Below, piece after piece: positions 1,911-24,527 of a stretch of 60,109 nt of DNA. Under the pieces are notes generated by a model, which ran no database searches, was not told the DNA's origin, and was given only the letters and a program-made list of their open reading frames with translations. The position numbers and the translations under genes are program-made. This stretch comes from Thermodesulfovibrionales bacterium (lineage in GTDB: Bacteria > Nitrospirota > Thermodesulfovibrionia > Thermodesulfovibrionales > Dissulfurispiraceae): contig JAOAGP010000009.1 of NCBI GenBank assembly GCA_026415695.1, positions 1 to 60,109 of the forward strand, written 5' to 3'. Every line of letters starts with the position of its first letter. Position 1 is the stretch's first letter.

Positions 1911-2909
1911 ATGCCTGAGTTAAGAAAAGATCCGGTGTCTGGTAGATGGGTAATAATTTCAGTAGAGAGAGGTAAAAGACCTACAGACTTTGTATCACCA
2001 CTACAGAAAAGGAGGGCGGGAGGTTTTTGTCCTTTCTGTCCTGGCAATGAACACACCACACCAAATGAGATTTTATCATTTCGACAGCCAAATACTCCTG
2101 CAAATGGCCCTGGTTGGAGTCTTCGTGTTGTCCCAAATAAATTTCCTGCCTTACAGATACATGGAGACCTCAATAAAAGGGGGGTGGGTGTATTTGACAT
2201 GATAAACGGTATAGGAGCCCACGAGGTTATCATTGAAACACCAGAACATCTACACTCACTTTCCACCTTACCATTAAAGGCGGTAGAAGATGTGCTTTGG
2301 GCATATTACTTTAGACTTACTGATTTAAAAAAGGATGTTCGCCTAAAGTATGTGCTTATTTTTAAGAATGAGGGAGAGGTTGCAGGTGCATCCTTAGAGC
2401 ATACTCATAGTCAGTTGATTGCACTACCTATTGTTCCTCAAAGGGTAAGAGAGGAGATGGATAATTCAAAGAAATATTACGACAGCAAGGAAAGATGTCT
2501 CATTTGTGATGTCATAAATCAGGAATTAGACAGTAGTAAAAGGGTTGTCCTTGAAAATGCACATTATGTTGCCATTGCACCATTTGCTTCAAGGGATCCA
2601 TTTGAGACATGGGTTTTGCCTAAAAAACATGAGTCCAGCTTTGCACCAATTGATAAAAGTTTCTCATCTCTTGCAGATATACTTCAAAAGGTCTTAAAGC
2701 AACTTGACAAGGTTCTTGATACTCCTCCTTATAATTTTATGCTGCACACATCTCCTTTTAAAGAAGAACAAAACGAATATTACCACTGGCATATCGAAAT
2801 ACTACCAAGACTTACAAAAAGGGCAGGGTTTGAGTGGGGTTCTGGTTTTTATATAAATCCAACATTACCAGAAGAGGCAGCAAAGTTTATGAGAGAGGCA
2901 AAGATCTAA
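1911..2909 (+). CDS. galT: Galactose-1-phosphate uridylyltransferase family
   Basis: A 332-residue HIT-superfamily nucleotidyltransferase that would exchange UMP between UDP-glucose and galactose-1-phosphate (or act as a sugar-1-phosphate adenylyl/uridylyltransferase). Zinc ligands are visible at C40-x-x-C43, the active-site HTHSQ has H164 and H166, and VVPNKFPAL is a family signature. The start at 1911 follows AAGGAGG at a good distance; a longer reading from 1863 lacks a ribosome site and is not used. Nitrospirota-type genomes often carry this gene in glycogen metabolism, so an ADP-glucose phosphorylase-like role cannot be excluded. Confidence 0.85.
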   Translation: MPELRKDPVSGRWVIISVERGKRPTDFVSPLQKRRAGGFCPFCPGNEHTTPNEILSFRQPNTPANGPGWSLRVVPNKFPALQIHGDLNKRGVGVFDMINGIGAHEVIIETPEHLHSLSTLPLKAVEDVLWAYYFRLTDLKKDVRLKYVLIFKNEGEVAGASLEHTHSQLIALPIVPQRVREEMDNSKKYYDSKERCLICDVINQELDSSKRVVLENAHYVAIAPFASRDPFETWVLPKKHESSFAPIDKSFSSLADILQKVLKQLDKVLDTPPYNFMLHTSPFKEEQNEYYHWHIEILPRLTKRAGFEWGSGFYINPTLPEEAAKFMREAKI

Positions 2910-2928
2910 ATACTTTCTGATTGATAAA

Positions 2929-5526
2929 ATGAACCGCATAAATAAGATACTTGAACTGATTAGAGAGATCCTCTACATACAGGATTTAGACACCCTTCTT
3001 CACACAATAGCAGCGCAGATTTCACTACTTCTAAACACAAGGGGTAGTATTGTAAGGATACTTGAAGACAATAAACTTAAGGTAAAGGCAGCGGTAGGGG
3101 TTAATACGGAATTATTCGATCAATTGACCGTTCAGATTGGAGAAGGCATAGCAGGGAGGGTGTTTGTAGAACAGAAGGCTATAGTGGTAAATAATCCTGA
3201 TGAATTTGGTTTTATTTCCCCATTATTAGATATAAAAAATGCCCTTTGTGCTCCTATCAAAACAACCGACAAGCTTATTGGAACATTTGGGGTATTCAAT
3301 AAGATTGACGATCATGGGAATCTCACTCCTTATAACCATGAAGATGTGTATATCTTTGAAGAGTTTATAATGATATCATCCGTGTTGATAGAAAAACTCT
3401 ATCTTTATGAGCAAACCCTTAAGAAAGAACACGAGGTTTCCCAAGAAAAGCAAAAATCTATTGAGATTACAAACTTCTTGCAGTCCCTCATTGAAAACTC
3501 TGCAGATGCTATCATCACAACAGACCTCAATCGTATCGTCCTTTCATGGAATATCGGGGCTGAAAACATTTATGGTTATAGTAGAGAAGAGGTCTTACAC
3601 CAACCCTTTATGCTTACTCCTGATTTCATGTTTGATATTGAAAGGATATACACCGATAGGGTAAAAAACGGTGAGACACTCAAACACATTGAAACAGTCC
3701 ATATGACAAAAGAAAAGGCATTGATAGATGTGAGTATCACGATGTCACCAATAAAAGATGCGGATTCAAAGGTAATCGGCATATCTATTATATCAAGGGA
3801 TATTACAAACAAGAAAAAGACAGAGAGAGAGTTGATAAGAAAAAATGATATGCTCAACAGGCTTATATTCATAAGCTCTGCGATGAGGAGCACTCTCAAT
3901 TTAGAGAGGCTTACAAGGATGATACTCACCGCAGTAACAATGGGTGACGGATTTGGGTTTAACAGGGCTATGTTATTTTTAATTGATGAAGAGAAAAATA
4001 TACTCAAAGGTGCGATGGGTGTTGGGCCTTCTTGTCATGAAGAGGCATGGAGGATATGGTCAACATTATCAATTGAGAATAAAAACCTTTATGAACTAAT
4101 AGACGAGATAGAAAAAGGACCTTTGAAAAAGGATTCCTTCATGGATAAGATGTGCTGTAACATAGAGATATCGTTAGATGAAGAATCAATCCTCACAAGG
4201 GTTATCAAAAACAAGGTGGCTTACAATGTCAAGGATGTTTATCTAAACGACAGCTTTGATGATTATCTCGTGAAAAACTTAGGGACAAATAGTTATGCTG
4301 TCATACCTCTTATCTCTATGGACAAGGCAATCGGTGTATTATGGGTAGATAATCTGTTTTCAAGAAGGCAGATAACCGATGACGACATAGAATACCTAAA
4401 GGGTTTTACAAGTCAGATTGCCTCTGCTATTGAGAATGCAAGACTCTTTCAGAGGGTTTATGAGGCAGAAAAAGAATTAGAAAACATATTTGAATCTATT
4501 GACGACATGTTATATGTGACGGACAATAATCTAATCATTAAAAAGGCAAACAAATCTGTATTAAAGTATTTAGGATTGCAAGAAAAAGATATCATAGGTA
4601 AAAAGAGTATAGAGGTATTTAACGAGCATATTTCAAAGTGTGAAACTAAGTTTAGGACACTGCTAAAAAGCAGCACTCAGGCACTTATTGAAGAGATAGA
4701 GGATACAACCACAAACAATACTTATTTAGTCTCGTGCTCCCCAATATTAAACCCTGAAGGCGAGACTATCGGCACAGTGCATATATTAAGGGATATAACG
4801 GAGATAAAAAGGCTCCGTGAGAGGGTGGCAACAAATGAAAGGATGGCTGCACTTGGCGAGATAGCCGCTAAGGTTGCACACGAGATAAGGAATCCTCTAT
4901 TGAGTATAGGTGGGTTTGCACGAAGATTAGAAAGGAAATTAGACAATACCCTAAAGGATTACGCAAAGATTATAGTAGATGAGGTGCAACGGTTAGAGCA
5001 TATTTTAAATGACACGCTAAGTTTTGCAAAATCATCAAGGCTACAGAAAAGTAAGGTCAGATTATCTGAGATATTGGATGGTATCATAAGTCTCCTTGAA
5101 CCTGTCGTGCAAGAAAAGAACAATAAGATAGTCAAAGAGGTTTTTGACGATGTCTTTGTGTGCGTAAACCCTGATAGGTTTAGAGAGGCACTTTTAAACA
5201 TCATTACCAACGCAAATCATTTCACAGAATCGGGTATTATCAAGATTTATGTTGAAAAACGACAAAAGATAGTGGTTGATGAAAATTCTAACTCTACCAA
5301 TTATAATGAGGTCATAATATCGATATCTGACACTGGCTGTGGTATAAAGAAGGAGGACATCCACAGGGTATTTGACCCATTTTATACGACAAGAACCAAT
5401 GGCACAGGTCTTGGGCTGTCAATAACCAAAAGAATAATTGAAGAGCATGATGGCTATATTGAAGTAGAAAGCACACTTGGGGTTGGCACAACCTTTAAAA
5501 TATATATATCTTGTGAGGAGGTATAA
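2929..5526 (+). CDS. Cytoplasmic sensor histidine kinase, GAF-PAS-GAF-PAS-HisKA-HATPase
   Basis: An 865-residue kinase without membrane segments. Order: GAF (about 15-150), PAS (about 180-300), second GAF (about 310-505), second PAS (about 515-630), HisKA with phospho-acceptor H651 in KVAHEIRNPL, then HATPase with N box (NIITNANHF), G1 (DTGCGI) and G2 (GTGLGLSI). Four sensor domains suggest several intracellular ligands or a redox cue; no haem or flavin ligand can be assigned by eye. The response regulator gene begins three bases after its stop, so the two form a two-component pair. Confidence 0.9.
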   Translation: MNRINKILELIREILYIQDLDTLLHTIAAQISLLLNTRGSIVRILEDNKLKVKAAVGVNTELFDQLTVQIGEGIAGRVFVEQKAIVVNNPDEFGFISPLLDIKNALCAPIKTTDKLIGTFGVFNKIDDHGNLTPYNHEDVYIFEEFIMISSVLIEKLYLYEQTLKKEHEVSQEKQKSIEITNFLQSLIENSADAIITTDLNRIVLSWNIGAENIYGYSREEVLHQPFMLTPDFMFDIERIYTDRVKNGETLKHIETVHMTKEKALIDVSITMSPIKDADSKVIGISIISRDITNKKKTERELIRKNDMLNRLIFISSAMRSTLNLERLTRMILTAVTMGDGFGFNRAMLFLIDEEKNILKGAMGVGPSCHEEAWRIWSTLSIENKNLYELIDEIEKGPLKKDSFMDKMCCNIEISLDEESILTRVIKNKVAYNVKDVYLNDSFDDYLVKNLGTNSYAVIPLISMDKAIGVLWVDNLFSRRQITDDDIEYLKGFTSQIASAIENARLFQRVYEAEKELENIFESIDDMLYVTDNNLIIKKANKSVLKYLGLQEKDIIGKKSIEVFNEHISKCETKFRTLLKSSTQALIEEIEDTTTNNTYLVSCSPILNPEGETIGTVHILRDITEIKRLRERVATNERMAALGEIAAKVAHEIRNPLLSIGGFARRLERKLDNTLKDYAKIIVDEVQRLEHILNDTLSFAKSSRLQKSKVRLSEILDGIISLLEPVVQEKNNKIVKEVFDDVFVCVNPDRFREALLNIITNANHFTESGIIKIYVEKRQKIVVDENSNSTNYNEVIISISDTGCGIKKEDIHRVFDPFYTTRTNGTGLGLSITKRIIEEHDGYIEVESTLGVGTTFKIYISCEEV

Positions 5527-19657: not shown

Positions 19658-20146
19658 ATGAAGATATTAATCCTAACATTTCTAATACTTGCATTAAATC
19701 AGCCAGCCTATGCTAATGACAAAAAGGCATCCGACTTTTTTCTAAAGGATATATATGGTAAGACTATCAGATTATCGGATTATAAAGGAAAGGTGGTTCT
19801 TTTACATTTTTGGGCGATGTGGTGTGGAGATTGTGTAAAGGAAATACCATCATTAAACAACGCATATGTTCTTTTTAAAGATAAAGGATTGGAAGTGATT
19901 TCTATCTCTACCGATACATCTATATCAAAACTACAGGAGTTTTCAAATAAAAACAAGATTGAATTTTTGATTCTTCATGACCCTGATAAATCTGTCACGA
20001 TTAAATCTTATCAAGTTATAGGTTTGCCTGTAACCTTTATAATAGATAGGGATGGTAAGATTATTGAGAGAATCAATGGACCGAGGGATTGGAATTCACA
20101 GGCAATGAAGAAAAAGATTCAATCAATAGTTCAAAAAAAGCAATAA
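19658..20146 (+). CDS. Exported TlpA/ResA-type thioredoxin-like protein
   Basis: A 162-residue periplasmic thiol-disulfide oxidoreductase. A signal peptide (about 1-19, ending AYA) precedes a redoxin fold with active site WCGDC and the cis-Pro loop GLPVTFII. TlpA-type proteins reduce apocytochrome c or other exported cysteines; here it could serve the downstream hydrogenase or cytochromes, but nothing shows that directly. The ATG follows the terminator by only 15 bases and lacks a Shine-Dalgarno; TAAAAT at 19647-19652 may be a -10 for a leaderless message. Confidence 0.88.
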   Translation: MKILILTFLILALNQPAYANDKKASDFFLKDIYGKTIRLSDYKGKVVLLHFWAMWCGDCVKEIPSLNNAYVLFKDKGLEVISISTDTSISKLQEFSNKNKIEFLILHDPDKSVTIKSYQVIGLPVTFIIDRDGKIIERINGPRDWNSQAMKKKIQSIVQKKQ

Positions 20147-20296: not shown

Positions 20297-21379
20297 ATGA
20301 GTGAAGAGAGTATTTATGAGTCGTTATTAAGGAAGGGTGTCTCAAGAAGGGATTTCTTGAAGTTCTGCTCTACCTCAGCCATGATACTTGGACTGTCATC
20401 ATCTACTGTGCCCAAGATTGCTGAGGCATTAGAGAAGAAAGAAAGACCATCAGTAGTGTGGTTACATTTCTCTGAATGCACAGGTGATTCAGAATCGGTA
20501 TTAAGGGCAAGCAAACCCTCTATTGCTCAGGTTATTCTTGATATTGTCTCTCTTGAATATCATGAAACTATCATGGCACCGTCTGGTCATGCAGCAGAGA
20601 AATCTCTGAAGGATATCATCACGAAGAAAAAAGGCAAGTATATCGCTGTTTATGAAGGGGCAGTACCAACTGCCGACGGAGGTGTTTATTGCTTTATCGG
20701 TGGACATAAGGCGATTGACATCTGTAAAGAAGTTGGTTCTGGTGCAATGGCAAACATTGCTGTTGGTAATTGTGCATGTTTTGGTGGTATTCCAGCGGCA
20801 AATCCAAATCCTACCAAATGCGTTGGGATTAAAGACATACTTGGCGGCACCGTTGTAAATCTTGCAGGTTGTCCTATGAATGCAGAAAACTTTACCGCTG
20901 TAGTAGTTCATTTTGTAACATTCGGAACGCTTCCTGCACTTGACAAGCATGGACGTCCGTTATTTGCATATGGCAAGTGTATTCATAATAACTGTGAACG
21001 CCGTCCTCATTTTGATCAAGGACAATTTGTTCGTCAGTGGGGTGATATGGGACATAGGCTTGGATGGTGTCTTTATGAAATGGGTTGTAAAGGACCTATG
21101 GCTTATCAAAACTGCCCAACTATTCGTTGGAATGAAGGGACAAGCTGGCCTGTTCAGGCAGGGCATCCTTGCATAGCCTGTGCAAGTCCTAACAACTGGG
21201 ACGATGCATATCCTTTCTATAAGAGGATGGAAGGTGTTCCGGGTGTAGGTTGGCAGGCAAATGCAGACAAGGTAGGTCTTGGAATTGCTGCTGCAACAGC
21301 TGCTGCGGTTGCCGCACATGGCATAATCAGAGCCGCAACAAGAGGTAAGGGCCCTTCTGACAAAGAAGAAGGACATTAA
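20297..21379 (+). CDS. hyaA: Membrane-bound [NiFe] hydrogenase small subunit with Asp in the proximal-cluster motif
   Basis: A 360-residue iron-sulfur subunit. A Tat signal (SRRDFLKF at 16-23) exports it and a C-terminal helix (about 325-350) anchors it beside the cytochrome b. Distal-cluster ligands are H230, C233, C258, C264; medial ligands are C273, C292, C295. The proximal set is C61, C159 and C192, but the fourth ligand position (Cys20 in D. gigas) is D64, in the string ECTGDSES. An extra Cys sits at C161. A 3-Cys/1-Asp proximal cluster is known from the actinobacterial-type hydrogenase of Ralstonia eutropha. The gene follows a clear AAGGGGAGGAG site and leads the operon; it is 42 bases from the large subunit. 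Confidence 0.93.
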   Translation: MSEESIYESLLRKGVSRRDFLKFCSTSAMILGLSSSTVPKIAEALEKKERPSVVWLHFSECTGDSESVLRASKPSIAQVILDIVSLEYHETIMAPSGHAAEKSLKDIITKKKGKYIAVYEGAVPTADGGVYCFIGGHKAIDICKEVGSGAMANIAVGNCACFGGIPAANPNPTKCVGIKDILGGTVVNLAGCPMNAENFTAVVVHFVTFGTLPALDKHGRPLFAYGKCIHNNCERRPHFDQGQFVRQWGDMGHRLGWCLYEMGCKGPMAYQNCPTIRWNEGTSWPVQAGHPCIACASPNNWDDAYPFYKRMEGVPGVGWQANADKVGLGIAAATAAAVAAHGIIRAATRGKGPSDKEEGH

Positions 21380-21421: not shown

Positions 21422-23140
21422 ATGGCAAAATTAGTAGTTGATCCAGTTACAAGGATAGAAGGTCATATGAGGGTTGAGGCTAAGGTTGAAGGTGGTAAGA
21501 TTGTAGATGCTTGGGTATCTGGTACAATGTGGCGTGGGATTGAAACCATTCTAAAAGGTCGTGACCCTCGTGATGCATGGCTTTTTGTCTCGCGTGTCTG
21601 TGGCGTCTGAACAACGGTTCATTCTACAAGCTCCGTGAGAGCTGTTGAACATGCACTTGGAATCATCATACCAGATAACGCAAGGATTTTAAGAAACATT
21701 ATTAATGCTATACAAATGGTTCATGACCATGTAATCCATTTCTATCATTTGCATGCACTTGATTGGGTTGATATCGTCAGTGCACTAAAAGCAGACCCAA
21801 AAAAGACTGCTGATTTGGCATCATCAATATCTGATTGGCCAAACAATGCATCAGCAAGTTACTTTAAGGCTGTGGCTGCAAAATTAAAGGCTTTTGTAGA
21901 TAGCGGTCAGCTTGGAATATTTTCAAATGGTTATTGGGGACACCCTGCTTATAAACTGCCACCAGAGGCAAATCTTATGGCAGTTGCACACTATCTTGAA
22001 GCACTTGACTGGCAGCGTGATTTCATCAAGGCAATGGCACTGATTGGTGCTAAAAACCCACATCCTCAAACCTACCTTGTTGGTGGTATGGCAACCCCAG
22101 TTGACCCGAATAGTCAAAATGCAATCAATGCAGGCACTATTGCCCAATTAAATGAATATGCACGCCGTGCAAAAGAATTTGTTGATAAGGTATATATCCC
22201 TGATTTGCTTGCGGTTGCATCTTTCTACAAAGACTGGGCTGCAATTGGTGGTGGTGTTGGAAACTACTTATCATACGGTGAGTTCCAAAAGGACAACAAT
22301 CCCAATACATCAAATGTATGGTTACCTGCTGGTTTCATTCGTGGTAAGAACCTCAGTAAGATTGAGCCAGTGGATCATAAGAAGGTTACTGAAGAGGTCT
22401 CTCGTGCATGGTATAAATACACCGGTGGTGACAGCAAACCACTTCACCCATGGGACGGAGAGACAACACCAAATTACACCGGTCCTAAAACATCCTACAA
22501 AGAACTGGATACAAGTGGTAACAACAAATACAGTTGGACAAAGGCTATAAGATATGATGGATTACCAGTAGAGGTTGGTCCACTTGCTCGTATGGTCATT
22601 GCCTATGCTGCAGGACACAAGGAGGTCAAGGACTTAGTAGGTTACGCACTTAATAAACTTGGAGTAGGACCAGAAGCCTTATTCTCAACATTAGGACGCA
22701 CTGCTGCTCGTGGTATTGAAACCAAGTTAATTGCTGACAAATTACCCGAATTTATTGGTGACCTTGCTAATAACATCAAAAAAGGAGATTACCGTATAGC
22801 AAATACAGAAAAGTGGGATCCTGCAACATGGCCAGCTGAGGCAAAAGGGTATGGTTACCATGAGGCACCAAGAGGTTCATTATGCCATTGGATTGTTATC
22901 AAGGATAAAAAGATTGCCAATTATCAAATGGTAGTTCCGGGTGGCATCAATGCCTCACCTCGTGATGCTAAGGGACAACTTGGTCCTGATGAACAAGCCT
23001 TGATAGGCACTCCTATTGCAAAGCCAGACCAACCAATTGAGATAATAAGAACAATACATTCGTTTGATCCATGTATGGCATGTGGTATTCATTTATTAGA
23101 TGCCGAAGGCAAAGAGATTGTTCAAGTTAAAGTCAGATAA
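21422..23140 (+). CDS. hyaB: [NiFe] hydrogenase large subunit with in-frame TGA, predicted selenocysteine at residue 63
   Basis: Read through one TGA at 21608-21610, this is a normal full-length catalytic subunit of 572 residues. N-terminus [13 protein letters not shown] is standard. The N-terminal nickel motif reads RVCGV-(TGA)[17 protein letters not shown], where relatives have RxCGxCxxxH, so TGA replaces the second Cys (position 63, after C60). The C-terminal motif DPCMACGIH keeps C551 and C554, and the protease site follows H557, leaving a 15-residue tail. No other stop or frame change occurs, so the break is one codon. Without readthrough the product is a 62-residue stub. Selenocysteine is the simplest reading; a pseudogene or base error is the alternative. 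ATG follows AAGGAGG. Confidence 0.9.
21608..21647 (+). promoter_or_regulatory. Putative bacterial SECIS hairpin after the hydrogenase TGA
   Basis: AGCTC at 21629-21633 pairs with GAGCT at 21639-21643 over the loop CGTGA (21634-21638). CAAC at 21612-21615 can add a lower stem with GTTG at 21644-21647. There are 23 bases between the TGA and the loop and a G at the second loop position; both fit the loose bacterial SECIS pattern. A competing eight-pair stem (21612-21619 with 21640-21647) exists. The bulged U of the E. coli fdhF element is not evident, and the region is also under coding constraint. Confidence 0.55.
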
Positions 23141-23151
23141 AGGAGGGTCAT

Positions 23152-23811
23152 ATGGCTACTACACATAGAGAATACATATGGGAGATACCAGTCCGAATCA
23201 CTCATTGGATAAATGCGATTAGCATTGTTGTCTTGTCTGTTACAGGATTTTATATAGGTTCTCCTTTTTGGGATTCCCCTAATAGCGATTCAGTGCTCCC
23301 TATGGCATTGATGAGGTTTATCCACTTTGTTGCAGCCTATGCCTTTACTGCAAGTGTCCTTTTCAGAATCTACTGGATGTTTGTTGGTAACAAGTATGCA
23401 CGGTGGAACCAGTTTATCCCCCTATCTACAGAACGAATCGTAAACTTCATTCAATGTGCGCTGTTTTATGGATTTATGCGTAAGGAAATTCCTCATTCAC
23501 CCGGACATACTGCTATAGCAGGGGTTTCGTATTCTATAATATTTCTAATTTTTCTTTATGAGATTGCATCTGGATTTGCATTGCTGTATGTGGCAAATGG
23601 TGGAGGAGCGATCTACAATATAGGTGGAGGATGGTTGTTAAGGATTATGGATCTTGGCACCATTAGGATGCTTCATCATGTATTCATGTGGGTAATTTGG
23701 ATATTTGTCATTATACATGTCTATATCTCATGGCATAATGACATCATTGAGAGAAACGGTCTTATGAGTTCTATCTTTAGTGGATATAAGTTTTTCGGGA
23801 AGCATCACTAA
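23152..23811 (+). CDS. hyaC: Hydrogenase b-type cytochrome
   Basis: A 219-residue integral membrane protein with four predicted helices (near 20-40, 58-80, 120-145 and 175-195). His residues in ITHWINA, RFIHFVAAY, MLHHVFMW and VIIHVYISWH are candidates for the two b haems. HupC/HyaC proteins take electrons from the small subunit's distal cluster and pass them to quinone, so the complex should oxidise periplasmic H2. It starts 11 bases after the large subunit behind AAAGGAGG. Confidence 0.93.
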   Translation: MATTHREYIWEIPVRITHWINAISIVVLSVTGFYIGSPFWDSPNSDSVLPMALMRFIHFVAAYAFTASVLFRIYWMFVGNKYARWNQFIPLSTERIVNFIQCALFYGFMRKEIPHSPGHTAIAGVSYSIIFLIFLYEIASGFALLYVANGGGAIYNIGGGWLLRIMDLGTIRMLHHVFMWVIWIFVIIHVYISWHNDIIERNGLMSSIFSGYKFFGKHH

Positions 23812-24306
23812 TTGTCTATTGCAGTTGTAGGCATTGGAAACATACTTTTACAGGATGAAGGGGTCGGGGTCCATGCTGTAAGATACATCCAAGAGCATTA
23901 CTCATTCTCTCCAGAGATTGAGATATTGGATGGGGGAACACTGGGTCTCGACCTCCTACCTTTTATAGAAAGGTTTGAAAAGATATTATTTGTAGATGCA
24001 GTAAATTTTGGTAAGGAACCGGGTTACATTGGGGTCCTTGAAGACGAGGAGATTCCTTCTTTAATCCATATGAAGTTATCTGCACATCACATTGGACTTG
24101 CAGATATACTCTCATTAGGTCGGTTAAAAGGGATATTGCCAAAGAAGGTATGCCTTGTAGGGATACAGCCACAGACAAACCCGTTTTTGTTTGGAACCGA
24201 ACTTTCTCCTGAAATAAAGAGTAAAATGCTACAATTTGTAGATGAAATAATAAAAAAATTAAGAGAGTGGAATGTAACATGTGTCTTGCAATCCCATCAA
24301 AGATAA
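23812..24306 (+). CDS. hyaD: Hydrogenase maturation endopeptidase
   Basis: A 164-residue HybD/HyaD-family protease that removes the C-terminal tail of the large subunit after nickel insertion. The Ni-sensing ligands line up exactly with E. coli HybD numbering: E16 (GIGNILLQDEGVGV), D62 (LFVDAVNFG) and H93 (SAHHIGLADIL). The only suitable start is TTG directly after the cytochrome stop, with a weak ribosome site, implying coupling. Its presence argues that the large subunit next door is really made and processed. Confidence 0.93.
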   Translation: MSIAVVGIGNILLQDEGVGVHAVRYIQEHYSFSPEIEILDGGTLGLDLLPFIERFEKILFVDAVNFGKEPGYIGVLEDEEIPSLIHMKLSAHHIGLADILSLGRLKGILPKKVCLVGIQPQTNPFLFGTELSPEIKSKMLQFVDEIIKKLREWNVTCVLQSHQR

Positions 24307-24527
24307 TCAGCATTGACAATCTCATGGCAACTGTAGATGTAATGGGTGCAAGGAGGGATGTTAGTTTAATCCTCCTACCTGAAGAGGCAGATGTTGGTGA
24401 CTATGTCCTTGTGCACGCAGGTTTTGCACTGCAAAAGATTGACGAGGAAACTGCTCAAGAATCTCTAAAACTGTGGAGGGAATACGCAGAATTTCTTGAA
24501 AAAGAAGCCATGTATGAAGACACCTGA
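24279..24527 (+). CDS. hypC: Hydrogenase assembly chaperone HypC
   Basis: An 82-residue chaperone that carries the Fe(CN)2CO unit and guards the large subunit during cofactor insertion. It must begin MCLAIP because Cys2 is essential, so the start is ATG 24279 rather than the GTG at 24267. VDVMGARRDVSLILL and VGDYVLVHAGFALQKI are standard. It overlaps hyaD by 28 bases. Other hyp genes are not in the window. Confidence 0.95.
   Translation: MCLAIPSKIISIDNLMATVDVMGARRDVSLILLPEEADVGDYVLVHAGFALQKIDEETAQESLKLWREYAEFLEKEAMYEDT

Follow-up and report, generated by a model that had tools for sequence, protein, structure and literature searches.

The hydrogenase operon and its cluster ligands

A hydrogenase operon lies on the forward strand of the window, the whole 60,109-nucleotide stretch of DNA analyzed here. 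Its first gene (20297..21379) is predicted from the ORF translation, PDB alignment and profile matching to encode a Tat-exported [NiFe]-hydrogenase small subunit of 360 aa. It is followed by genes for the [NiFe]-hydrogenase large subunit (21422..23140; translation and profile match; 572 aa with an in-frame TGA read as selenocysteine, Sec), a Ni/Fe-hydrogenase b-type cytochrome subunit (23152..23811; TIGR02125, 160.6 bits), a HyaD/HybD-family maturation endopeptidase of the HupD protease type (23812..24306; TIGR00140, 154.3 bits), and a HypC/HupF chaperone with an uncertain start codon (24267..24527; TIGR00074). Immediately upstream of the operon, an exported TlpA/ResA-like thiol-disulfide oxidoreductase is encoded at window positions 19658-20146.

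The small subunit scored 431.7 bits with the NCBIfam hydA profile (TIGR00391), above the curated cut-off of 179.5 that group 1 uptake hydrogenases exceed. Both the Tat signal and the cytochrome b partner that mark this group were present, the former as the motif SRRDFLK at residues 16-22 (20342..20362; TIGR01409, 19.6 bits), which bears out the description of a Tat-exported, cytochrome-b-coupled enzyme given in an earlier note on this DNA.

The proximal-cluster ligands C61 (20477..20479, ligand 1), C159 (20771..20773, ligand 3), and C192 (20870..20872, ligand 4) were identified in the sequence and in alignments to PDB entries, for the latter two also to HofK. At ligand position 2, the codon GAT (20486..20488) encodes D64, and in the alignment ECTGD64SES places this residue opposite the cysteine of ECTGCSES in the Desulfovibrio vulgaris Miyazaki periplasmic [NiFe] hydrogenase (1h2a). 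The aspartate that the earlier note had read at the second proximal position is therefore confirmed directly by the codon and by the alignment. The four-Cys proximal cluster, usual but not universal in group 1, is absent here, since D64 replaces the second cysteine. All distal (H230, C233, C258, and C264) and medial (C273, C292, and C295) ligands of the small subunit were kept. The same note was right that every other canonical ligand is in place and miscounted them as eleven; they number ten, the canonical total being eleven when the medial cluster is [3Fe-4S]. The additional Cys161 that it had pointed out near the cluster is also present (20777..20779), two residues from the ligand C159, and in the alignment of pairs it is not conserved together with D64.

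The best PDB match was 1h2a, which has the same other cluster ligands and differs in its four-Cys proximal cluster. The cysteines that define the six-Cys [4Fe-3S] cluster of group 1d membrane-bound hydrogenases (CTCC and SWGC) were not found, the window having CTGD and FGG at these places. The CxxD proximal motif of the actinobacterial-type enzymes (group 1h, formerly group 5) was present, and in HofK of Cupriavidus necator (Ralstonia eutropha) HofKG (PDB 5AA5) the aspartate of GCDGDS falls in the D64 column. The proximal cluster of this C. necator enzyme is a 3Cys1Asp [4Fe-4S] cluster, and we know of no TGA or Sec in HofKG. The proposed likeness to the R. eutropha enzyme accordingly holds for the position of the aspartate. 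It does not extend to close kinship, as HofK is only about 27% identical overall to the window's small subunit and 5aa5 ranked last among 43 PDB sequences; the window's enzyme, Tat-exported with a cytochrome b, is nearer to ordinary group 1 (331 versus 90.5 bits). No usable text on 3Cys1Asp clusters was found in the searchable literature, which held few subscription papers.

Asparagine occupies the equivalent place in HucS (ACSGNT) of the group 2a hydrogenase Huc (PDB 7uur/7utd), in which all three clusters are [3Fe-4S] (PMC10017518), and a Huc-like locus in our set, L178, carries aspartate there. Huc differs from the window's enzyme in being aerobic, in coupling otherwise than through Tat export and cytochrome b, and in its distant sequence. 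Through HofK and HucS, both Asp and Asn at this position thus have structurally characterized precedents, each in a distant enzyme.

Residue 64 among relatives

The distribution of residue 64 was followed in 156 distinct, alignable pairs of small and large subunits, drawn from loci of the window's phylum, from 80 named loci, mostly of Nitrospirota, and from loci of the phylum of 'Deltaproteobacteria' relatives, a second phylum for which the name Desulfobacterota is inferred. The 156 pairs are neither a random nor a complete sample, being best matches and hand-picked places, mostly from metagenome-assembled genomes, and two of the phylum searches overlapped almost entirely in the genomes they covered.

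Aspartate or asparagine at position 64 with C61 kept was found in 97 of the 156 pairs (Asp in 69, Asn in 28), and the four-Cys proximal type in 51. Asp64 was retained in the closest relatives, with 85, 84 and 73% identity. A sequencing error or a one-off substitution was rejected as the source of D64 because Asp or Asn recurs in so many pairs. The tree requires 12 or more switches between the two residues, so the position tolerates oxygen- and nitrogen-bearing side chains, yet it is not free to vary. Judged by its place on the tree, Asp/Asn64 is an old trait of the window's clade. Eight further pairs of the 156 carry Asp at the first proximal cysteine instead (DTGC or DSGC); they form a separate clade (L151-L153, L155, L159, L165, L172, and L207), whose large subunits have an ordinary CGVC and a PTSH motif.

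Most likely, Asp64 either acts as an oxygen ligand to a [4Fe-4S] cluster, in the manner of the actinobacterial-type enzyme, or leaves a [3Fe-4S] proximal cluster, as in Huc with its asparagine. Asparagine in 28 of the 97 members indicates that a carboxylate ligand is dispensable, and D64 need not ligate. In ferredoxins, Asp ligation moderately raises the potential and makes one Fe labile. Either cluster type would shift the potential of the proximal cluster and, with it, the driving force with which electrons leaving the Ni-Fe site reach the quinone pool.

A four-thiolate cluster would still be formed if Asp64 were no ligand and another thiolate took its place, either Cys161, only two residues from C159, or Cys62, which adjoins C61 in some relatives. 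Cys161 was rejected as a compensating fourth ligand, because it occurs in just 9 of the 97 Asp/Asn64 members, compared to 3 of the 59 others. Cys62 was confined to members with Asn64 (10/28, versus 0/69 with Asp64), and its distribution on the tree calls for six or more changes; this association, with an independent-pairs P of about 0.1 to 0.25, is not significant and is a lead rather than a result. The window, like all the Asp members, has no Cys62, and replacement by another thiolate is considered improbable. The motif CCGN itself was seen in L102, L108, L114, L126, L136, L139, L140, L145, L148, and L232.

Predicted selenocysteine codons in the large subunit

The L1 motif of the window's large subunit reads RVCGV-TGA-TTVH and its L2 motif DPCMAC. 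The first L1 ligand of Ni is C60, encoded by TGT (21599..21601), a codon that is TGA in most relatives. The second, codon 63, is TGA (21608..21610) and is predicted from the sequence and its relatives to encode Sec. By homology, we take the second L1 cysteine to bridge Ni and Fe and the first to be terminal. In L2 (CMAC, 23072..23083), both C551 and C554 are cysteine according to the translation and alignment. Classical [NiFeSe] hydrogenases (HysAB, Vhu, and Fru) share Sec as a Ni ligand with the enzyme predicted here but carry it in the C-terminal L2 (UxxC; DPUxxC) rather than in L1. The window's DPCMAC lacks it, and with NF045518 the score was 384 bits, short of the cut-off of 780.

Among the 30 best-matching loci, most large subunits read RI-TGA-GV-TGA-TTVH, with TGA at both L1 cysteines (UGxU). 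In the 156-pair set, UGxU was found 71 times and CGxU 25 times, and an L1 TGA with an intact frame downstream was present in 96 distinct loci; the TGA63 named in the earlier note is real and recurrent. A selenoprotein inventory of 2026 contains hydrogenase large subunits with the UxxC motif only (PMC13188914). No earlier report of hydrogenases with Sec in L1 was found in the searchable literature, which included few subscription papers, and the position appears to be new. Escherichia coli Hyd-2 has been engineered to the variants C61U, C64U, C546U, and C549U, of which C61 and C64 correspond to the L1 positions with TGA here, and all four variants were active (PMC11212049). These variants are artificial and single-site, whereas the predicted Sec residues described here are natural and often double.

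The genome encodes SelA, SelB, SelD, and a tRNA-Sec with the anticodon tca, that is, a bacterial machinery for selenoproteins. In the phylum genomes with an L1 call, SelA was found in 62 of 63 with the Sec type and 25 of 31 with the Cys type (Fisher P = 0.005, uncorrected for kinship). Two other genes of the same genome also contain in-frame TGA codons. The SelD gene (L254, G000:C56) has one at its usual Sec site (SAGUAGKLG), and a second, group-3-like large subunit (L259, G000:C69, about 2031-3510) reads CGV-TGA-RGVH, where the TGA at 2232 would place Sec at the same L1 position and is followed by a hairpin.

Downstream of TGA63, a candidate bacterial SECIS hairpin, AGCTC-CGTGA-GAGCT (21629..21643), was recognized by folding and by the codon signature of relatives. 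Taken alone, it was not significantly stable (z = -0.36; P = 0.10), and a scan of the region near the TGA at Rfam gathering thresholds returned no RNA family. Against a null of synonymous codons drawn at whole-gene usage, Sec loci folded more stably than expected in clade A (mean -9.3 versus -6.2 kcal/mol) and in clade B (-10.4 versus -6.0 kcal/mol), while the Cys loci of clade A showed no excess stability (-5.4 versus -5.5 kcal/mol). With a null pooled from codons at the same sites, the clade A signal vanished because the pool itself held the hairpin codons. The codon at the Val/Ile position of the hairpin was GTG in 95 of 96 Sec loci, compared to 5 of 42 Cys loci of the same clades, a count uncorrected for kinship. 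From the machinery and the clade-wide signals of folding and codon use, we infer that Sec is incorporated at TGA63. One Cys locus, L211/L220 (G424), has cysteine (TGT) in L1, yet the Sec-type hairpin AGCTCCGTGAGAGCT is intact, probably as a relic SECIS after reversion of Sec to Cys.

The poor stability of the window's own hairpin would also suit a decayed operon, in which translation of the large subunit would end at the TGA and Asp64 would have drifted under relaxed selection. Such a pseudogene was rejected by the conservation across relatives, and it is scarcely credible given the intact frames downstream of the L1 TGA in 96 distinct loci, the Sec machinery of the genome, and the conserved cluster ligands of the small subunit. 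Annotation would render the majority of large subunits with Sec in L1 as truncated or split genes, which makes the trait easy to overlook.

Asp64 and predicted selenocysteine as probably separable traits

The earlier note had proposed that Asp64 and TGA63 co-evolved, possibly for oxygen or sulfide tolerance, and that their co-occurrence be examined on a tree of small subunits. All 75 Sec members of the window's clade do have Asp or Asn at position 64, as a functional pair would require, but exceptions were found both ways, which is the outcome that the note had itself named as refuting its proposal. Asp/Asn64 was combined with an ordinary CGxC in 22 pairs. Two clades other than the window's supplied 21 pairs in which L1 Sec accompanies an intact four-Cys cluster (CTGC). 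One of these belongs to Nitrospirota and has genes between those for the small and large subunits (L188-L206); the other belongs to the second phylum (L240-L244) and shows CGVUTYTH and a UCGGUGA loop. Strict coupling of Asp and Sec, contradicted in both directions among the 156 pairs, was rejected.

On a tree of the concatenated subunits, built quickly from columns other than those of the traits and by a method without a mixture model, at least two changes were needed for Asp/Asn64 and at least six for Sec. Within the window's clade, the lineages that branch off at the base carry Asp or Asn with CGxC, so the loss of the cysteine preceded Sec there. Thermodesulfovibrio, with Cys64 and a CGxC L1 motif, may have reverted in both traits and be nested in the Sec clade, a placement that would favor co-evolution and whose supporting branches are weak. 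Independent-pairs tests showed no association of Asp64 with Sec, with too few pairs to give much power. The host genome contains dsrA, and no haem-copper oxidase was found in it, which fits an anaerobe with a dissimilatory sulfite reductase and leaves a role of the enzyme in O2 tolerance unsupported. Co-evolution of Asp64 and TGA63 as a functional pair is thus regarded as unlikely. By their distribution across the aligned pairs, Asp/Asn64 is evolutionarily separable from L1 Sec, which arose more than once.

The enzyme is best read as an uptake hydrogenase of group 1, exported by the Tat route and coupled to cytochrome b, with a proximal cluster of three cysteines and Asp64, either an oxygen-ligated [4Fe-4S] or a [3Fe-4S] cluster, that would have a shifted potential, the trait being old and separable from L1 Sec; we put the probability of this reading at roughly two in three. 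With good confidence, we also propose a new class of natural [NiFeSe] hydrogenases in which Sec occupies L1, at the bridging position alone, as in the window, or at both ligands, as in most relatives (UGxU). In the window's clade, this would be paired with a proximal cluster short of one cysteine, so that a selenolate-bridged Ni-Fe site would feed a relay of shifted potential.

With Asp, Asn, Asn accompanied by Cys62, and possibly a restored Cys at position 64 within one clade, nature has set up an experiment on the way in which the first relay cluster tunes a hydrogenase. Every one of the four combinations of Asp and Sec is represented, and the contribution of each could therefore be measured by comparing natural enzymes. 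Specialists would be surprised by Sec in L1, at one ligand or at both, a trait distinct from Asp64. If confirmed, it would be the natural counterpart to the Cys-to-Sec variants that chemists have made in E. coli and would add a further ligand position to those at which [NiFeSe] hydrogenases carry Sec.
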